Shown: in pieces, positions 878-63,261 of the stretch
Layout of the letters: each line of letters starts with the position of its first letter
How positions within the stretch are numbered: the first letter of the stretch is position 1
Assembly (NCBI GenBank): GCA_013176395.1
Contig: JABMLP010000003.1
Location: forward strand, 868,001 to 932,000
Length of the DNA: 64,000 bases
From: Venturia oleaginea
Lineage: Eukaryota; Ascomycota; Dothideomycetes; Venturiales; Venturiaceae
Direction: 5' to 3'
The notes under the pieces: model-generated
Databases searched by the model: none
What the model was told of the DNA's origin: nothing
Seen by the model: only the letters and a program-made list of their open reading frames with translations
Translations under genes and position numbers: made by a program

Positions 878-953
878 ATTCCTGGGCTCAATCCTGGGCC
901 CAATCCTGGCCTCAATCCTGGGAAGAATTCCTGGTCTCAATCCCGGGAAAATT
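878..953. repeat. Degenerate 12-bp tandem repeat (CTCAATCCTGGG-like)
   Basis: The motif CTCAATCCTGGG recurs about five times in succession with small variations (cccaatcctggc, a variant with aagaattcc, and a final copy with cccggga). It lies in non-coding DNA. The frames running across it translate to an Ile/Leu/Pro-rich periodic peptide that is an artefact of the repeat. Confidence 0.8.
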
Positions 954-1929
954 CGAAATAATATGGAGACAGCGAACACCAGCTCTTTATCATAACCATT
1001 CCAACAACACATTGACGAAGACGCACTGAAACCGATATCTGATCTGGACATTCATAAAAACACGGATCTCCATGTCACCATCACTCCAAACAGTATTATA
1101 GCTAGGTATGTTGGAATGATGCCTACTGCAATAGTGATCTTCCCTTTTGTTGACACTCCTTTCCACACGAAGCAAGTCCGCAAGATGTATCGCTAGCAGA
1201 TGGCACATCGTCAGCAGTTCCTTTGTAGTACTTAGTGATATAAGAGTTTTGCAGGTAATTGTGCTTCTGCATGCAGCATTTAATGGCATATATGCACCCC
1301 ATCTCCCTAAAAAACTTGAGTGGTTGTCTACTAACACTCTCTCCCATAGACTTGCGAACGCAGCGAATTGCGGACTTGCAGCATCGTGCACCTGAATGAG
1401 TAGCCTTGTGCTTGTGCTTCAACACGGCAGAGATGTCGAAATAGGAAGTGGACGTCGTGGAGTCCACGCGAAGGAATAATTGATCATGTCATTCCAACGA
1501 CTAACCGCAATCTCGAAAGATATTACTCGATATCGATAATGTCACCAGCCATCCGAGAAATTTCCCACATGGCGCAATTCTATCTCTGATTCAAGTTGTT
1601 AGATCTCCTCCATGACCACACGTGACAATCCAGCTCGCAACCCAATCCTAGATGAGTACACACCAACAAACACCCGATTCCATCACCCGTCCAATGTCCA
1701 TCCCGCTTCACAATCCCATATCCGAGCAGTTCCAAAAAAGAAAAGCACGGATCTCACCCACGCCGCAAAGACGAATGCCACGAATGCCACTACCAACCAC
1801 AAAGACGCCTCATTCACGCGGTTCACCATTCGCGACTTGCCAGCGACGCGACGGCACGCGACGCATAATCAGGGGAGGTGCTCAGTCACCTAGGTAAGCC
1901 ACTCTCTCAGCACTTCAACACGGTCCATT

Positions 1930-15573: not shown

Positions 15574-18500
15574 ATGCCTCGCAAGGCATACATCGCCGAC
15601 CTCAAGCGCCTGTCTACAGATCCCACCAGTGCCATCGACGGCATCCAAGACGTTCGCTCGGGCGATGACGACGGCGAATTTCGATTCAAGGTTACGCCAT
15701 TGGGCGCCAGTCAGCCATATGAGATTTCCGCCCTCATTCCTGGTATGTGCTCAAATACTGCTTTGGATTACTTTCCCCGTCCCCAAAAATACAGCTTGAA
15801 TGCCTATGGGCCAATTACCTTACCTTCAGAACCGCTGCTGCCAGCTTTCCCCGAGCTTCTTCTCATCGACCAATTACCAACACGTGATTGGATAGCAAGC
15901 ACGTCAAGAAAGATTTTATTGATTGTGCTGGTGGATTTCGCTGCTAATACTCTTGCTAACTTCCTCCTAGATGTATCGGATTATCCAGGTAGCCACATGT
16001 ACCATATCTTTTCCGCAGATGACAATGCTCCGCCCTCGGTCGGCGCGACTTTGAACAACTTGCCCAACACTATGGGAAAAGACCTACCATCGCTTTTGGA
16101 AATTGTATCGAGGGCGTTCTCGCCGGACTCTGACGGAGATACTCCCATGGTGGACTCCCAGTACGAAGAGGAGGAGGAGGAGGATGAAGATGACTACTCG
16201 GAGGATGAGTATGCCCATGCCGATTTCTTCGGAGGTGAACGCAGTGCTTCGAGATCCGATGCACCACATCTAATTACAGGCGCACCTGCCACTGCTTCGA
16301 ATCAACAATTTCGTAACCGCATTCGTTCCGACTTGAAGTCAGCCAAGTCAGCTGGCTTCAAGGTTGCTACACACGGCCCCTTGATGGAAGCAGGCCCGGG
16401 CTATGTTAGTATTTCGTGCCGCGTTGCCAAACTCGGAATCTCCGAAGAAGCCATGCAGGCATGGGAATTGGATTCCAATCAATATCTCATCTTGCTCATT
16501 CACTATCCCAGTGGGTACAAGACCGTCGACTTCATCACAGGCTCTGATAATTTTGCTGCTCGCCGTGGCGTCGAGCTTCGAGTTGGTCTCAGCAGCAGAT
16601 CAGTATAAGCCGACTTTACAAGAATCCATCAGTGCGTTCACGAAACTGTCCTCGGAAGAAGAATCGAGAGCAGAATTGATGCACGCCAAGGACGAAGGCA
16701 AGAAGAAAACATCCGAGCCAGAAGGTTTCCACAATGCCTTCATCTCCCGACCTCTCAACGAACTTATTAACGAACGCTTGGCTACCATCATTAAATATCG
16801 ATATATCGGCATGGGCTGGACAGGTGCAGAGGAATTTTACAACGACACCCAAGGCAAATCCTTCTCCATGTCCGGCGAAGATTCCATCGACAGCAAATAC
16901 ATGGCGCAAGAGTCGACCAGCGTCCCATCGATCGCAACCCGTGACCACCTGACCGAGTCCAAACCAGGAGAGCCACACTCATTCCCACTCCTGGCGATGC
17001 AATTCGTTCTACGGCATTTCGTGCGCTGCACAGAGTTTTGCCTTGTCTGCCATTCGAAGCTCGAGGATGACTTAGAGGCCCTCAAGCCCTACGTCTGCGA
17101 GAAGCCATTATGTTTGTACCAGTACATGTCATTGGGTTTTGGTCCAAGCATAGAGCACGAGATCATATCTCAGCCATATGTAGTTGATCTGCTCATTAGC
17201 TTCTGCTACCAGAGCGCTACTGGTGGCAAACTAACCAGCTTTCCTACTGGACTCAGTCTCAACGTGCCCCCGAGGATGGTGACCAGTGAGTACACGACGT
17301 ACCAGGCACCGCGTTACCCCCCTCCAGCTGCAGTGCTAGATACTCCAGCGGTTACTCCAGTTCCGCAGGATCGCGACACTCACAAAGCCAAATTCGATCC
17401 ATTTACGCGAGAGATCCTTTTTGAGAAGGGCATGAGCAATCCTGTTCGAGTTGGAGACTGGATTTGTTACAGCGATCCCTCCGTGTCTGGACCTGCACAA
17501 CACGCTCGCATTCTCGAGATAGCTTTGTTTCCAACCATCAGAATCTCTGAAGCCATCACGGCCACCCGCATCGACGACGACTTCCTAGCCACCGCGAATC
17601 GAAGCACCACAGGACCCATGACAAAATCTTCGCGCCTCCTTGATTTCTCCTTTCTCATCTACAATACCAACTTCGACACCCTCAATGATAATCAAAAGCG
17701 AGGCGCTATCGTTGGGCAACTGGATTTACTGCCTAGTGTGATGGAGATCAAGGACTACTTGACACGCAACCGAATGGCCACGCTAGCTAGTTGGACGGAT
17801 CGTATCTCTCCAGCCGCATCGGGTATCCTGCGTTGGATCATTGCATCCAATCGCGCCTGCATAGTACAGGTAGATGACCCGGACCAACCTAAGAAGAATC
17901 GCGATAAGCGATTGCAAGGAATGGACGGATGGATGCAATTTCGCTTTGCTATGGGAGCGCCAGACAAGGAGCGTCGCTTTATGGACTCCGTTCAGTCCAC
18001 GGCAAATCGATTAAGTCTCACCTATCCAACCCTTTTTGCATGGCACGGCAGCCCCCTGTGCAACTGGCACAGCATCATTCGTGAAGGTCTGCACTTCAAT
18101 ATGATCTCGCATGGGAGAGCATTTGGTAATGGCTGCTACCATTCGATGGACTTCACCACTAGCTATGGCTACTCGGGCTCGCACTATCGTGGAACTGGAG
18201 GTGTTCCAAATAGCTGGCCCTCAAGTTTGCTTAAAATCTCCGGTGCTATGGCCTTGAATGAGATTGTCAATGCTCCAAAGGAGTATGTGAGCATGAATCC
18301 TCATCTGGTTGTGGCACAGCTAGATTGGATCCAGACTCGGTATCTTTTTGTCCAGTGCAATGGCGACGTCAAGCCGTCTGATACAACTAGCAGCGACGTT
18401 ATGCACGTCCAAGATCCCCATATGACGCCCAACGGACAGAATGGCAAGATCCTGATTCCGGTTGGTGCGATGCCAAGGTCTCGTCGCCCTGACTTGCCAA

Positions 18501-19453
18501 CCACCACAGGACGAGCGAAGAAGAAGGTGAAGTGCCTTGGATCTGCATCACACCCAATCGATCTGGACGACGATGATGCCGCTAGTATAGTTACGGACGT
18601 TGAGGACCTCAATATATTATTTGATGAGGACGTTAGCATCATTCCTACAGCTGAGGTATTGCAGATCAAGAATGCTAACGGAAAGCATGGCGGCTTCTTT
18701 AGCGGAATCAAGTCAAAGATCTCGTCCTCCAAGTCCTCCAAAGCAGAGAAGCCATTGACAGACTTTGTGCCGGGCCAGTTGGATTACTCAACATTGCCGT
18801 TGATGGAAGAGCCATCATTTGCAAGCACTTCTGCTACGCGTCGTCTCCAGAAGGACTTCCAGACTCTGCTCAAGGTCCAAGAGTCTCAGCCTCTGCATGA
18901 ATTAGGTTGGTTCATCGACCCTGAACAGTTCAACAACGTGTACCAATGGATCATTGAGTTTCATTCTTTTGAAGACCAGCTTCCATTGGCAAAGCAAATG
19001 AAGGCCAAGGGCATTAAGAGCGTTGTTTTGGAGATGCGATTCGGAGCCGACTATCCAATGTCCCCACCCTTCGTGCGGGTCATCCGTCCACGCTTCCTGG
19101 GTTTCATGCGAGGTGGTGGTGGACATGTCACTGCTGGCGGCGCTATCTGTATGGAGGTAAGTGATCAATTCCCCGAGACTCCTAACATATACTAACATAT
19201 TCAACAGCTTCTCACCAATAGCGGATGGAGCGCCGTCTCCACCATTGAGTCTGTTCTTCTTCAAGTGCGGCTCGCCATGTCCAGCACAGATCCCCATCCA
19301 GCGAAGCTTGATGAGGGTGGCAGACGCGACTACGGCGTCGGCGAAGCCATCGATGCTTATATTCGGGCTTGTCAGACCCACGGCTGGCAAGTTCCACCTG
19401 GCTTCCGTGAGATGGCTATGGGTGGCGCACCAGCCAGCTCTGCATACCGTTGA
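15574..19453 (+). CDS. PARP catalytic domain - ubiquitin-conjugating (UBE2Q-like) fusion protein
   Basis: Exons 15574-15742, 15971-19156 and 19208-19453, about 1199 residues. The family, found in filamentous fungi, combines a PARP-type ADP-ribosyltransferase domain with a C-terminal UBC fold. Visible: an acidic stretch around residue 120; a Cys-containing conserved region (EFCLVCHSKLEDD, KPYVCEKPLCLYQYM); the PARP core around residue 745 (AWHGSPLCNWHSIIREGL, then GRAFGNGCYHSMDF); and the UBC core around residue 1100, with HVTAGGAICME at the splice junction followed by LLTNSGWS. The Cys in GGAICME is the presumed catalytic Cys. The frame changes once between RVGLSS and DQYKPTLQES, near 16591-16603, where one base must be skipped; no plausible intron fits. 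This may be a sequencing indel or a real lesion. Substrates are unknown to me. Confidence 0.88.
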
Positions 19454-54913: not shown

Positions 54914-55666
54914 ATGGACGATTCATCCCCCACAATGAGCAAAAAGGAAAAGCCCACGTCGCGACCCACCAACTTCAAGCCCTTGTCTCGCGAGGAATTC
55001 GCTAAAGTTACGTATGGCGCCAACAAGTACTGGTTCGCCAAGCACTACTCCAAGGGCCAATCGCTCTCCAGCAGATTCCTCGAGCAAGCTGCAAAATGTC
55101 TTTCTCTGAAGTCAGATGACCCTAGTAAGAAGGAAGCCGACCAACTTCTGGACGCCATGCGCAATGACCCAGACTTCTACACCGAGGAAATGCTGAAGAA
55201 GGCGCTTGGAGGGAAAGAGTCCGAGAAGGGAGGGCGCGCTCGTACCAGTTCGTCTGCATCCAGCTTGAAGGAGACCGTTGTTCCGTACGCCAACAAGGGG
55301 TTCACGAACCGCTTCACGAACTCAGAGTACGATGACGACGACGATGTTTTCCGCTCCGACGGCGTGATCGTAGAGACTCCGACCGAAGCACGCGGCATTG
55401 AGGATGATGGAGATGGTGATTGTCCTCCACCACGCACTATACATGAGGACGGCAACTACAAGACAACGTCCAACGCGCGATTGAGCACAGTCTTCGAGGA
55501 GTCGAAGGGCAAGAAGGCAGGCTCTTCCTCGTGCAGCAAACCTGTCTGCGTTGACCTGAATTCGGATGATGATGACGATGACTACGAGGATGGGGATGAA
55601 TTTGGCAAGGAAAGTTTCTACGATGACTACCGCGGAGAATTCGATGGTTCCTACAACGATTACTGA
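54914..55666 (+). CDS. Acidic low-complexity protein, unknown
   Basis: A 250-residue intronless frame. The first 90 residues look folded (FKPLSREEFAKVTYGANKYWFAKHYSKG; FLEQAAKCLSLKS; ADQLLDAMRNDPDFYTEEML). The rest is polar and disordered with runs of Asp (YDDDDDVF; DLNSDDDDDDYEDGDEFG). A short segment KPVCVDLNSDDD precedes the last acidic run. No signal peptide or membrane segment. No family recognised; the conserved-looking N-terminus could be tested against fungal genomes. Confidence 0.6.
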   Translation: MDDSSPTMSKKEKPTSRPTNFKPLSREEFAKVTYGANKYWFAKHYSKGQSLSSRFLEQAAKCLSLKSDDPSKKEADQLLDAMRNDPDFYTEEMLKKALGGKESEKGGRARTSSSASSLKETVVPYANKGFTNRFTNSEYDDDDDVFRSDGVIVETPTEARGIEDDGDGDCPPPRTIHEDGNYKTTSNARLSTVFEESKGKKAGSSSCSKPVCVDLNSDDDDDDYEDGDEFGKESFYDDYRGEFDGSYNDY

Positions 55667-56390
55667 ACGGGTGTGACAGAGGACAGGATGTACTGGGTAG
55701 GTGAATGGGAGCAACAGATGGAAGTTGGGCATGCTTTTGTGTGGGTTTACGGCGTCTCACAGGATTTCCCACGGACAGGAAAATGGCTTTTACGGATGGC
55801 ACTCGATCAGATTCACAATGATATCACGATGGAAAGATAGCGATGTACTATATACCCCCGCAGTGGCTTCGCTTGTCCAGTTTCCCGCCTAGCCTGCAGG
55901 AATCACGATATTGGCTTTGTATATTATTATTCTGTGGCCGTGTTGTCGTTTCATTCTGTTCCCTCTTTTTCTTTTGGGGAATGGCTGATGATGGGTGGTT
56001 GAAGGACAATGACAGTCACTCCCAGCCTTGCTCGTTATGCGAGGACAATCTGACATGGCCAGTTCATTGACTTCCTGCTCGTCCTTGTGAAGTCCGGACT
56101 CTCATGATCTTTGTTAGGCTGTACTCGTTCATGTCAATTAGTGATGTGGGAGGGATTTGGACAATCATTGTTTTCACTTTCTCCTTGTTGAAGACAGTCT
56201 CAAGACTAGGATAATAACGATAGACGGATTGGCGGAACAGATTTGTGAGTTGATATGCGACGAGTGAACTGCTAAGAAGTCCTGTTTATACCCAACCTCA
56301 CGTACTGCCTGCTGATGGTGTAAAAGTCGACGTCCCAGGGTATTCCATCATCTACCTTTTCGTCAACTCACTTGCTCCGAGACTTGAGCC
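55667..56390. other. Intergenic between the acidic-protein gene and the first Cys-rich mini-gene
   Basis: No supported gene. The part adjoining 56390 should hold the 3' UTR of the minus-strand mini-gene. Confidence 0.55.
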
Positions 56391-56510
56391 CTACATGACG
56401 ACGCAAGCACATGACTCGGAGATGCCGCAGCAAGAACAGGATTCCTGGCAGTAATGTGGTGCTGTTGGCTTGACGATGGAAAAGATTGAGGAAGTTGTTG
56501 ATGGCTGCAT
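56391..56510 (-). CDS. Cys-rich CaaX-box peptide precursor, copy A (39 aa)
   Basis: ATG at 56510 in a good fungal context (CAAAATG) opens a 39-residue frame ending in TAG at 56391. It starts MQPSTTSSIF and ends with cysteines spaced C-x3-C-x-C-C-x5-C-x-C-V-V-M; CVVM is a CaaX box predicting farnesylation. There is no signal peptide. Upstream, 56612-56567 has a 46-nt GT...AG stretch that fits an intron in the 5' leader. A paralogue lies 755 bp upstream in the same orientation. Fungal a-factor-type pheromone precursors are short, non-secretory, often begin MPS-like and end CVVM, so that is the leading idea. The extra cysteines are atypical, and a prenylated metal-binding peptide is the alternative. 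Short and in a non-coding-looking context, but supported by the paralogue comparison. Confidence 0.75.
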   Translation of the reverse strand: MQPSTTSSIFSIVKPTAPHYCQESCSCCGISESCACVVM

Positions 56511-56612
56511 TTTGACTGGCTGACTTTTTCAGTGCGCTGACTTGATTTAGGGCTGTCTTGTGATGTCTGAGCATGATTAGGGATTAGTTGTGAGGTAGAA
56601 ATGACATGTTAC

Positions 56613-57264
56613 CTTTGAGGATTGGAAGTAGTAGGATATGAGAGTTGAGTAAGAGGGTTGAAACTTGAATTGAGTTCAGAGTTGAATTGTGTCTGGCGTG
56701 GTTATGAGGAATTGCCGTGAGGATGGCACACGTTAAGTACCTGCCTTCATACGTGCATACGTAGTAGAGATAAATCCGTCATTAGTGTGGCTATGTATGT
56801 AGATCGACGACATGTTGCAGGAAGCTTGGTGGAGCTTAGTTGTAGCTCGTGTCCGCATTCGGACCTATCGCCGTAAACCCTAGCTGGATGACGAAACATT
56901 CGTCTCTCAGCCTCGTACGAAAGCAAGGAAATCCTTTCGTTAAAAGCCTGGTGTTAGTGTTGTCTGTTGGTGTGATATGATGTGTTGTACTATACTCGGT
57001 AGCTATGGGAGAGAAGCCCTAGATGATGAATATCACTGGATGTTCTTTCCCCGAGGATAATCGATATCAAGAGCAAGAGAAGTAGAAAGCTGTCAAGGGA
57101 AATAGTCGGATCTATGTCATTTTAACAGCTCTCAAAAGCATCCCGTGACCAAATTGCATCGTTCCTTTCCTAATTCGGCGCATGTCGTTGTAGCCGTTAT
57201 CCATCACATTTCCATCGTTTTCGTTTCATTTCTTTCTTCCATTATTCGAACCAAACTGAACTCT
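56613..57264. promoter_or_regulatory. Spacer between the two Cys-rich mini-genes (promoter of copy A)
   Basis: About 650 bp carrying the start region of copy A's transcript and the 3' flank of copy B. A pyrimidine-rich stretch (minus strand) lies just upstream of the putative leader intron of copy A. No further copy of the Cys-rich tail was found in it. Confidence 0.4.
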
Positions 57265-57396
57265 TTACATGACGACGCAAGAACACGACTCATAAAATCC
57301 ACAGCAGGAACAAGATTCACTGCAATAGTGAGGTATGACATTGCCCTTGATGACGGAGGAGACGGAAGAGGTCGTGGAGGTGGTACTTGGGGGCAT
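57265..57396 (-). CDS. Cys-rich CaaX-box peptide precursor, copy B (43 aa)
   Basis: ATG at 57396 (context CACCATGCC) opens a 43-residue frame ending in TAA at 57265. It starts MPPSTTSTTSS, has a short Val/Ile/Lys segment, then the same C-x3-C-x-C-C-x5-C-x-C-V-V-M tail as copy A. Compared codon by codon with copy A, the last 21 residues share 17 amino acids; 7 of these 17 codons differ synonymously and the stop codons also differ, so the copies are old and the peptide is constrained. A 44-nt GT...AG stretch (57488-57445) in the leader parallels copy A. In-frame upstream codons could extend the frame, but they cross the putative intron and contain no ATG. Confidence 0.78.
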   Translation of the reverse strand: MPPSTTSTTSSVSSVIKGNVIPHYCSESCSCCGFYESCSCVVM

Positions 57397-57488
57397 GGTG
57401 TTGTTGAACTGGTTGGTTTGAGGATTCAATTGGAATTGCTTCTTCTGCAATCAGCTTCGAATGTTCATAAGGATGGTCAAGGTTTTAC

Positions 57489-58048
57489 CTGAGTTAAGGA
57501 CGTGAATATGTTCTATAAGGTAAGCTATTGGAGGAAGATGTCAGTGAAGGGTTGGGGGTAGATCAAGGCTTTAAGTAGACCAGCCAGCTGCGAATGACTC
57601 TTTGTATGGATAGGGAGCTAGCTCAGCAAGCCAATCTGAGCATCCAGATGCCACATGTTTCATCATGGCTGCAGCTGCTTTTCGGGCTTGCCCAGCTTAG
57701 GAGTGCCAGCAAGGCGCGAGACTTGACGCATACATGGTATAGGTATTACAGCCAACTCAACCGCGATACTCTACACTACCTAGCCATTTAATCATCATTG
57801 TAGCCAAAAGTGTGGGCATATATGACCCAATTATGCCTCTTTTTTGATTGGATCTTTCTAGAATCTTCGTCATAGCTCTTGACTTCGAAAACACTCGGCA
57901 ACCATACTCAACCCTGAGAGCTCGGGTTGAAAACACGACGAGGAAATACATGTGAAACAACTATTTCCTGCCCGCTCAGAAGCCTCACCAATACCTCCCA
58001 CAATACCATCACCGCACATTTGTCCTCCGCTTAGTAAACACCACCAAC
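57489..58048. promoter_or_regulatory. Divergent spacer between copy B and GET3
   Basis: About 560 bp holding the promoters of both genes. It contains a short 65-codon plus-strand frame with no features. Confidence 0.4.
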
Positions 58049-59180
58049 ATGTCCACGGCGCTCATTGACAGCGACGACCTGGAGGCCATGGAGCCTACTC
58101 TCAAATCCATACTCGAGCAGAAGACTCTACGCTGGATTTTTGTTGGAGGAAAAGGAGGTGTCGGCAAGACTACAACCTCCTGCTCCCTCGCTATTCAACT
58201 CTCCAAACATCGCAAATCCGTCCTCCTAATATCCACCGACCCCGCCCACAACCTCAGCGATGCTTTCAACCAGAAATTTGGCAAAGATGCCCGACTGATT
58301 GACGGCTTCACAAACTTGAGTGCTATGGAGATTGACCCGAATGGTAGCATACAAGATTTGCTGGCAGCTGGCGGTGAGGGAGCAGATGAGGCAATGAATG
58401 GACTTGGTGGACTCGGAAACACCATGCAAGACTTGGCATTCAGCGTATGTGTCCTATTACTCGTCAAGAAGAATGGACACTAACAGTTCATGCAGATACC
58501 CGGTGTCGACGAGGCCATGTCGTTTGCTGAAGTCCTCAAGCAAGTCAAGGCTCTATCCTACGAAGTCATCATTTTCGATACCGCTCCTACGGGCCACACC
58601 CTACGTTTCCTCCAATTCCCTACAGTCATGGAAAAGGCTCTTGCCAAGATCTCACAGCTCTCGACACAGTTTGGCCCTATGCTGAATACCTTCCTTGGTG
58701 CCCGCGGCGGTCTGCCTGGAGGTCAGAACTTGGACGATGTCATACAGAAGATGGAGGACTTGCGCGAGACCATTGCAGAAGTGAATACGCAGTTCAAGAA
58801 CGCGGACATGACCACGTTCGTATGCGTGTGTATACCCGAGTTCCTGTCTCTGTATGAGACGGAGCGTATGATTCAGGAACTTGGCAGCTATGAAATCGAT
58901 ACGCATGCCATCGTGGTCAATCAACTGCTATTCCCGAAGAAGGACAATCCTTGCGAGCAGTGCAATGCTAGGCGGAAGATGCAAAAGAAATACCTCGACC
59001 AGATTGAGGAATTGTACGATGAGTTCAACGTGGTCAAGATGCCATTGCTGGTGGAAGAGGTCCGAGGAAAGGACAGGCTGGAGAGGTAAGTTTCAAGCTA
59101 CTCACTCCGCAGGAAGCCATGCTAACCTGTTGCTCAGTTTCAGCAATATGCTAGTCACGCCGTACGAGCCTCCTGTATGA
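58049..59180 (+). CDS. GET3: Guided entry of tail-anchored proteins ATPase Get3 (ArsA family)
   Basis: Exons 58049-58444, 58496-59085 and 59138-59180, 342 residues. Get3 is the cytosolic ATPase that carries tail-anchored proteins to the ER receptor Get1/Get2. Visible: a P-loop with deviant Walker A ([12 protein letters not shown], residues 33-44), [15 protein letters not shown] (switch I), [11 protein letters not shown] (A-loop/switch II), the Met-rich hydrophobic groove region ([11 protein letters not shown]), VNQLLFP, and the zinc-binding CEQC near residues 284-287. The C-terminus ends VTPYEPPV. Frame and phases agree across both introns, and the length matches yeast Get3 (354). Confidence 0.96.
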
Positions 59181-61430: not shown

Positions 61431-63261
61431 CTACCTCCCAAACAACTCCCTCTCACTCAAACCCGTGTCATTGAAGCCTCTCTGCACTTTGACCGGAGAT
61501 GCCGTCTGCGGCACATCAGGCTGCGTAGTGAACGGACTAACCTCGTTCAAGCTCTTGATCCTGCCCAACAAAAACTCCATCTGCCTATACGCAGCTGAAG
61601 GCTGATACTGTGGCACCATATGTCCACTCGTGAACACCTCAACCCACGTCAAACCTCGCTCCGTGTGCGTGATGCCCATCTTACCCGCTCCAGCTGTCGT
61701 ACCGAGATTGAGTTCGGTGTGGTAGGGGACGTAAAAATCGGATTTGGGAGGGGTTTGGAAGCCTTGCTTGCCGGACCATGTCATATTTTGGATTGTGAGG
61801 AGGGCGCCGTCTAAAAGGAGGATGAAATCGAGGCTTCCGTGGGCGATGATGGTCCGTTTGGATCTCTCGATGACGGAAGGGAGAATGGTGAGACCTGATG
61901 GGAGGGAGGAGTCGTTGCGCAAGGCAACGTCGGAGCATTCCTTCCATGCCATAACAGGAGCGTTAATTGCCTTCTGCACATCGGTGCGGTTGAAGTAGAT
62001 TGATGCACCTGGAGGAAGATATTCAAAGGATCCCGGGAAGCCGAGGACGTCCCAGAGGTTGGGGCAAGTGGTTGCAATGTCGTAGATATTGAAGCAGGGG
62101 TTGAACTGTGTTGCTGCGTTCTTTACCCTGGCCCACAGCGCGCAATCGTCAGTAGTTTGCGGTGGTACAGGTAGTTTGCCTTTTGGTGGGTAGACGAGGT
62201 TCTCAGTTAAGTACTTGGTATAGCCGCATTTCTCGGCTCGGGTGGTCAGATCGGTCATGGTGGTTTCGTTTAGGTTGAAGAACTTTTCGTAATCTTTTAC
62301 GTATTTGGTGACGGGGACTTCTGCCATAACGGGATCTGTGTTGATGCTTCCGCTGCGGTCTTGTTAGTCGTTTCTCAAACATTCTGATCATGCCAGAAAT
62401 CACATACTCATAAATCATAGTACCCTGTACATCGAAATGCTCCTTGTCCTTCGCATTGAACATAGCATCAGCCATGTACGGGATGTACATGCCCGCGTAC
62501 GACTCTCCAGCAATATATATTTTCTTATTCTTGAACTTGAACGTCTCCTCGAAGTTCTTGAGGAAGCCCAAGAGACTAGCTGCAACAGCCTCTTGACTTG
62601 TTTCGATGCTTTGGCCTTGGGAGAAACCGGTGCCGACGGGTTGTTCGACCCAGATCATATTTGTGAGATTGTGCCATGACCATTGATTCTTGACGGGCTT
62701 TAAGGTGCCGTATTGCCACATGAAGGGGCCGTTTTCTTGGAGGAAACCTTCCAGAGAGGAACAGCCGGGACCGCCCTTTCAAAGTATCAGTAGGGAATTT
62801 CGCGTACACAGGTGGGTAACTTGCGTTCAGCCAGATAGTGAGGTCCTCGGTTCCTTGAGGATTCGAAGTAGGGAAGAACCAGAAGTAGAGCTGGCCAGCA
62901 TTCGAGGCATTCGAAATCGGTATCAACCCAGCATACGACTCTCCAATATCGAAGTCAACATCTGGGATCTTTGTGCCATCGACGATGAATTCTGTAGCCA
63001 ATTAGCGTCCATGCCTCTTCGTTGGCCAGCGAGCATGCTATACATACTTTTGATCGCCTCCGTCTGCGGTATAATTTTCGCGTCGGCTCTCTTGACCTGC
63101 TGCACCCTCTCCGCGCTCTTCCCATTCATGGGAACATGATGGAAGCTCCTCTCCGCCAACTCAATCCTATCCGCGACGGCCTTTCCGGCATGCCGTGGAT
63201 CCCTCCTTGCCTCGCCCAACCCGGCTATCAATGCCAAAAGAAGGGTATTGAGGAGCCGCAT
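61431..63261 (-). CDS. Secreted serine carboxypeptidase (peptidase family S10)
   Basis: Exons 63261-63048, 62991-62825, 62775-62408 and 62352-61431, 556 residues. Serine carboxypeptidases remove C-terminal amino acids, usually in acidic secreted or vacuolar settings. The N-terminus (MRLLNTLLLALIAGLGEA) is a signal peptide. Exon 2 has ISNASNAGQLYFWFFP and ends LTIWLN; exon 3 begins GGPGCSS, the oxyanion-hole motif, across an unusual GC-AG intron. Catalytic residues are visible: Ser in AGESYAGMYIPY, Asp in HGSLDFILL, His in TSGHMVPQYQP. No C-terminal membrane segment is seen, unlike Kex1-type enzymes. Several NxS/T sites (NRT, NDS, NMT) fit a glycoprotein. A GTG at 63276 in frame is not the likely start. 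Confidence 0.93.

Follow-up and report, generated by a model that had tools for sequence, protein, structure and literature searches.

A family of short cysteine-rich genes ending in a CaaX box in Venturia oleaginea and its possible role as a source of an a-type signalling peptide

The closest described systems to the genes considered here are the precursors of lipopeptide pheromones in filamentous ascomycetes. Among the Sordariomycete a-type precursors, of which N. crassa mfa-1 is a named member, that of M. grisea is printed as MSPSTKNIPAPVAGARAGPIHYCVIM, with the start MSPST and the end PIHYCVIM, and that of C. globosum starts MPSTTTQTKV (PMC3068285). Several a-type genes per genome, both clustered and dispersed, have been described from Huntiella and the Ceratocystidaceae (PMC10182648, PMC13037118). 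A hydrophobic N-terminus is given as a criterion for a-type precursors in one account (PMC13037118), and a Ser/Thr-rich start is named as common for them in another (PMC10569646). The latter, a 2023 study of Leotiomycetes, states that no a-factor gene had previously been reported in filamentous ascomycetes outside the Sordariomycetes, and in the literature examined the only published candidate outside that class is the putative Leotiomycete a-factor itself (the BCIN_13g03330 family), which has 45–64 residues, a Ser/Thr-rich N-terminus and most often the end CTVM, with CVVM in a few, and which is encoded by genes that are unannotated in most genomes (PMC10569646). No Dothideomycete a-factor was found in the open-access literature searched, which is no proof of absence. 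A further type of precursor is HPP1, the h-type precursor of Trichoderma reesei, which carries three copies of (L/I)GC(T/S)VM with Kex2 sites, is required for male fertility and is the protein for which a CaaX box with Met is stated to be of the farnesylation type (PMC3068285).

The window analysed here is a stretch of 64,000 nucleotides on contig C23 of the genome assembly (46.08 Mb in 61 contigs). An earlier note on this DNA had described two co-oriented mini-genes for peptides of 39 and 43 residues, and both were recovered, on the minus strand, which the note had left unstated. Gene 1 (56391..56510, minus strand) is an intronless open frame with the stop TAG for a 39-residue CaaX peptide precursor, MQPSTTSSIFSIVKPTAPHYCQESCSCCGISESCACVVM, and gene 2 (57265..57396, minus strand), also intronless and with the stop TAA, specifies a 43-residue CaaX peptide precursor, MPPSTTSTTSSVSSVIKGNVIPHYCSESCSCCGFYESCSCVVM, in the start context CACCATGCC. 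The two products are 69% identical and share a Ser/Thr-rich start, a tail of the form C-x3-C-x-C-C-x5-C-x-C with PHYC at its first Cys, and a terminal CVVM; gene 1 begins MQ. The conserved tail, containing the six Cys and the CVVM, comprises 21 codons in each, at 56394..56456 in gene 1 (CVVM codons 56394-56405) and at 57268..57330 in gene 2 (CVVM codons 57268-57279), both on the minus strand. Recounting gave exactly the figures reported earlier, namely identity at 17 of the 21 tail positions, different codons at 7 of these 17, and stops that differ, and the identical spacing of the six Cys in both peptides was likewise borne out. When a DNA pattern of the Cys block was searched with 2 mismatches allowed (shuffle mean 0.01 matches), it occurred at two places in the window, genes 1 and 2, each with 0 mismatches. 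As previously proposed, the CaaX box is of a prenylation type, more precisely of the farnesylation type (CVVM, X = Met), and inspection by eye agrees with the absence of a secretory signal, the N-termini of the family being polar and Ser/Thr-rich without a hydrophobic core.

A search of the genome with the gene 2 protein returned three matches: genes 2 and 1, and a further gene, gene 3, which lies on another contig and encodes a 39-residue family member, MPSTTSSISSIVKPKPIEHPCSESCECCGIGESCSCVVM (G000:C9:1043466-1043585, minus strand, E 1.9e-10); with 39, 43 and 39 residues, all three products fall below 100 residues, as do a-type precursors. For peptide 2 the protein search yielded a single database protein, a 43-residue hypothetical protein (Vi05172_g489, hereafter P0003; 86% identity to gene 2, E 2.6e-14) of V. 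inaequalis, a Dothideomycete of the order Venturiales. The expectation that automatic annotation would as a rule overlook frames of this length was only partly true, since the V. inaequalis copy had been annotated. Profile searches with four and then five members, in which 2 of 40 and 2 of 114 candidates reached E<=10, added solely P0004, a 53-residue frame on a 1325-base contig (E 4.8e-11 with the profile of four members) that keeps all six Cys and the CVVM; the E-values of P0003 in both searches and of P0004 in the second are circular, because these proteins were already in the profile. Beyond this genome, the database protein and profile searches thus found relatives in V. inaequalis and on the 1325-base contig only, and the absence of other Dothideomycete relatives is weak evidence, as the search depends on short proteins being annotated and having 5-residue words in common with the query. 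The weak matches that P0004 gave on contigs C1 and C8 (E 0.10 and 0.18) had no CaaX ORF of 18–100 residues at either locus, and a plasmid tblastn gave no family match, as expected for a fungus. In the alignment of genes 1–3, P0003 and P0004, all five members keep the six-Cys spacing and the CVVM; homologues that had lost either, which the earlier note had named as counter-evidence, were not among them. Invariant in the tail, besides the six Cys and VVM, are its first Glu, the Gly that follows CC and the ES that precedes the fifth Cys; the first half keeps STTSS together with one Pro, one Ser and one Lys. All five end in C-[SAW]-CVVM, and the residue pair that separates CCG from ES varies, being IS, FY, VS, IG and IG in the five members.

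Because 34 ATG frames of at least 25 residues overlap positions 55500-58500, the minigenes might have been chance open frames, or else decayed copies. Several results refute this reading, which we regard as extremely improbable, and confirm that the minigenes are real, conserved genes: the third copy (E 1.9e-10), the V. inaequalis protein (E 2.6e-14), P0004, the pattern of substitution, the limits of DNA similarity and a simulation. Over the 21 tail codons, dN for the three pairs was 0.125, 0.267 and 0.220 and dS was 1.72, 3.07 and 2.45, the dS values being saturated, so that dN lies well under dS (0.125–0.267 versus 1.7–3.1) in keeping with the purifying selection claimed earlier. Tail differences summed by codon position were 13, 11 and 31, and the excess at third positions was significant in one of the three pairs (P 0.0085) and marginal in two (0.056 and 0.065). 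The coding sequences aligned above all 200 shuffles in each of the three pairs, whereas none of the six comparisons of 300-base flanks beat the shuffles (11 to 184 of 200 reached the observed score); DNA similarity ends at the coding boundaries. The duplications look old, with only the coding part kept, since the coding DNA is alike and the flanks are not. The simulation, a Markov chain with a three-base context trained on the window and run to 92 Mb, twice the genome, on both strands, yielded 36 C[VIM][VIM]M stops and seven ORFs of 25–60 residues, none of them with six Cys (their last 25 residues contain 1 or 2); a shorter 12-Mb simulation gave zero ORFs. In the real genome the CVVM-stop pattern has 11 matches, three of which are family members. 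One match reads TGG and hence has no stop, and three more fall in Met frames of about 40–55 residues (L001/L060, L002 and L041), from all of which the Ser/Thr start and the Cys block are both absent.

A short CaaX peptide precursor is a known kind of gene product, and the six-Cys build was not found described in the open-access literature searched. Like the Sordariomycete a-type precursors, the family is short, has a start of the MPST/MSPST type, ends in a CaaX box with Met (as in M. grisea) and is multicopy, as in some taxa. A further likeness is that the M. grisea precursor ends in PIHYCVIM and that genes 1 and 2 have PHYC at the first Cys. In the family, however, the CaaX Cys is the sixth, and neither the M. 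grisea letters nor the partial C. globosum letters printed in PMC3068285 contain a six-Cys or any multi-Cys block, which counts against reading the family as a-type. So do three further differences. The polar, Ser/Thr-rich start departs from the hydrophobic start required in PMC13037118; the family lies elsewhere than near cyanate lyase or EBP2, where many Sordariomycete a-type genes are found; and the Gly-Tyr motif, which is frequent though not universal near the C-terminus of a-type precursors and present in 87 Leotiomycete proteins of PMC10569646, is absent from all five members. The putative Leotiomycete a-factor is otherwise similar in size, in its Ser/Thr-rich start, in the CVVM of a few members and in occurring outside the Sordariomycetes, a likeness by description only. 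HPP1 (PMC3068285) resembles the family in being a short precursor that has several Cys and a CaaX box, but the family has a single terminal CVVM and no (L/I)GC(T/S)VM repeat.

The genome encodes a receptor of the kind that an a-type signal would address. STE3, the a-type receptor, was found at C15:186097-187000 as two pieces over the cut-off, the first with one in-frame TGA that is most simply an intron, and STE2 lies on C3 (191.5 bits). A candidate MAT1-1-1 was rejected: the sole MATalpha match (L037 4812-4940 = G000:C11:860511-860639, minus strand) scored 25.1 bits against a cut-off of 28.1, and the region was judged to hold no MAT gene. EBP2 maps to C8 and cyanate lyase to C3, while contigs C23 and C9 carry the family genes; the 10 kb around each of the two markers contained no a-factor-like CaaX ORF, and one frame ending CMAA (L059) was seen in these surroundings.

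Competing a-factor candidates were sought with three gapped scans for MP-starting ORFs of about 16–46 residues ending C-[codon with middle T or C]-[F, L, I, M or V]-M. These gave 13, 6 and 8 places in the genome, with a true stop in 15 of the 19 from the first two scans and in 6 of the 8 from the third; two of the last eight are family genes, which serve as controls, and gene 1 cannot match because it starts MQ. A scan for [FYWCL]-C-x-x-M followed by a stop found 15 places, 13 with a true stop, and recovered, as a further control, the Ras tail CGCCTVM (Pfam Ras) as well as a frame ending NGCCVVM, which we take to be a G-gamma tail and which had no Pfam match. Four candidates, those closest to a-factors in appearance, were set aside as likely chance frames: a 39-residue/19-residue frame on C13 (L026/L046) that runs antisense to an open frame of 144 residues, a 36-residue frame (L065) inside a 430-residue frame, a 26-residue frame (L068) inside a 169-residue frame, and a frame ending YCVVM (L071) that is without Met and antisense in a 308-residue frame. 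Three others, the short L019 and L067 and the 43-residue L041, overlap no frame of at least 110 residues and may be rival a-factor frames; none is Ser/Thr-rich like the family or has the Cys block. L041 (G000:C36:35232-37246, about 884-1015, plus strand) is a Met frame ending CVVM within a 66-residue frame, Lys/Arg-rich, with a single Cys and no Pfam match over the cut-off. The remaining Met frames were judged by eye only. No convincing conventional a-factor emerged from these limited scans, which cover unspliced frames with X = Met.

Our preferred explanation, held tentatively and with somewhat less than even confidence, is that the three genes encode precursors of a farnesylated Cys-rich lipopeptide that would most likely serve a Venturia-like lineage of Dothideomycetes as an a-type signal directed at STE3. 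An exported a-type signal is favoured by the conserved Ser/Thr-rich first half, the multiple copies, the finding of STE3 but of no other convincing candidate for its ligand, and the variable residues held in a fixed frame. We infer the prenylation, cleavage, export, thiol state and receptor of the candidate pheromone. The cytosolic precursor would be farnesylated on the last Cys, that of CVVM, after which VVM would be removed and the Cys methylated, so that the end after CaaX processing would read ...ESCxC(farnesyl)-OMe. The Ser/Thr-rich N-terminal half would be cut off near the conserved Lys, and a Ste6-type transporter might then carry the remaining C-terminal piece of about 20–25 residues out of the cell. 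The other five Cys are spaced alike in every member, which suggests a structural use of their thiols; these may form disulfides, or bear metal or palmitate, and hold together a small scaffold in which the variable pair located between CCG and ESC would be candidate positions for specificity. A bolder form of the proposal, which we consider rather unlikely, is a Dothideomycete a-type pheromone of a new build, that is, a farnesylated peptide on the conserved Cys scaffold C-x3-C-x-C-C-x5-C-x-C, perhaps an old a-factor with an HYC end to which a Cys-rich module was added, and in which mate specificity would be set by the two variable residues. Besides the differences already described, the occurrence of other short CaaX-ending Met frames (including L041), the restriction of relatives to V. 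inaequalis and one 1325-base contig, and the CxCaaX tails, which are typical of palmitoylated, non-secreted proteins, argue against an a-type role. The family supplies candidates for a kind of sex pheromone long missing from these fungi; three copies with homologues and a diagnostic Cys/CaaX signature make the question testable in Venturia, and the family profile can be used for searching other Dothideomycete genomes. If the product is not a pheromone, a prenylation-type Cys-rich family without a curated profile over the cut-off would also be unusual.

Two intracellular explanations are retained because of the CxCaaX end and the metallothionein-like spacing, and the extra Cys, the lack of a Gly-Tyr motif and the lack of conserved synteny keep both of them serious. 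The peptides could be non-secreted metal-binding or redox peptides in which CxCC and CxC bind copper or zinc and the farnesyl group acts as a membrane tether. Short fungal metallothioneins have a high Cys content with CxC and CC, a density and spacing that the family shares, with its six Cys invariant in all five members, and three genome copies would fit a dosage role. To our knowledge, however, fungal metallothioneins have no CaaX box, and a metallothionein would need none, yet CVVM is invariant here; the Ser/Thr-rich start would also be left unexplained, and no metallothionein model matched at E<=10 (Pfam with five members, NCBIfam with four, gene 3 being left out), a negative limited by the HMMER filters, which drop most weak matches. 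We judge this explanation unlikely but well short of negligible, and give the same low standing to the other, namely that the genes encode a small intracellular membrane regulator or decoy with the last Cys farnesylated and the neighbouring Cys palmitoylated, like the CxC tails of Ras and G-gamma. The C-[SAW]-CVVM end of all five members places a Cys beside the farnesylation box, as in the CCaaX tails of Ras and in G-gamma tails, and the scans that detect the family type of ending also returned the Ras tail CGCCTVM and the presumed G-gamma tail NGCCVVM. Those tails, though, end full domains, whereas the family members are free peptides with no further domain for regulating anything, and palmitoylation needs no invariant Cys spacing across 21 residues. 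A CaaX-processed peptide that acts outside the cell in some other way, such as in signalling for growth or hyphal fusion, and is not recognised by STE3, appears quite improbable to us; in its favour, non-mating roles of pheromone-pathway components are discussed for Neurospora and Fusarium (PMC10569646).

Nothing over the cut-off was found in Pfam (five members) or NCBIfam (four members, gene 3 left out); the sole profile match of any strength, that of gene 3 to a Pfam spider-toxin model (E 0.015, 15.9 bits, cut-off 27), was taken as chance, and so was a PDB match at E 2.6. AlphaFold2 predicted no fold from the alignment of five (mean pLDDT 52, pTM 0.16), a result that would be expected of a peptide precursor but is not specific to one, and that is uninformative on disulfides.

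The upstream regions were scanned for five motifs over up to 700 bases of the three genes. The region 5' of gene 1 (56511..57264, minus strand), which is also 3' of gene 2, is its presumed promoter and leader, and that 5' of gene 2 (57397..58048, minus strand) is a presumed promoter that would also serve a divergent ArsA/GET3-type gene, one exon of which matches the ArsA family. The 652 bases between gene 2 and this divergent gene contain two copies of TGAAACA, which we take to be a word of the pheromone-response-element type: one at 57656..57662 (minus strand), 266 bases upstream of gene 2, is weak and may be chance, and the second is at 57953-57959 on the other strand, at -563 from gene 2. 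The word is absent upstream of genes 1 and 3, and the 600-base upstream regions of the three genes share no word of at least 8 bases, observations that count against the a-type reading, although common control of the three genes is neither supported nor excluded by these upstream words. Possible introns in the 5' leaders were noted by eye.

Other genes of the window were recorded in passing. A 250-residue frame without a Pfam match at E<=0.001 (54914-55663, plus strand) is convergent with gene 1. At 16385-19192 (plus strand) lies a 936-residue frame with a match to the PARP catalytic domain, whose C-terminal part presumably resembles a ubiquitin-conjugating enzyme, a resemblance not found by the Pfam scan. 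About 4 kb from the minigenes, at 61434-62778 (minus strand), two frames that overlap make up a gene for a serine carboxypeptidase (Peptidase_S10).
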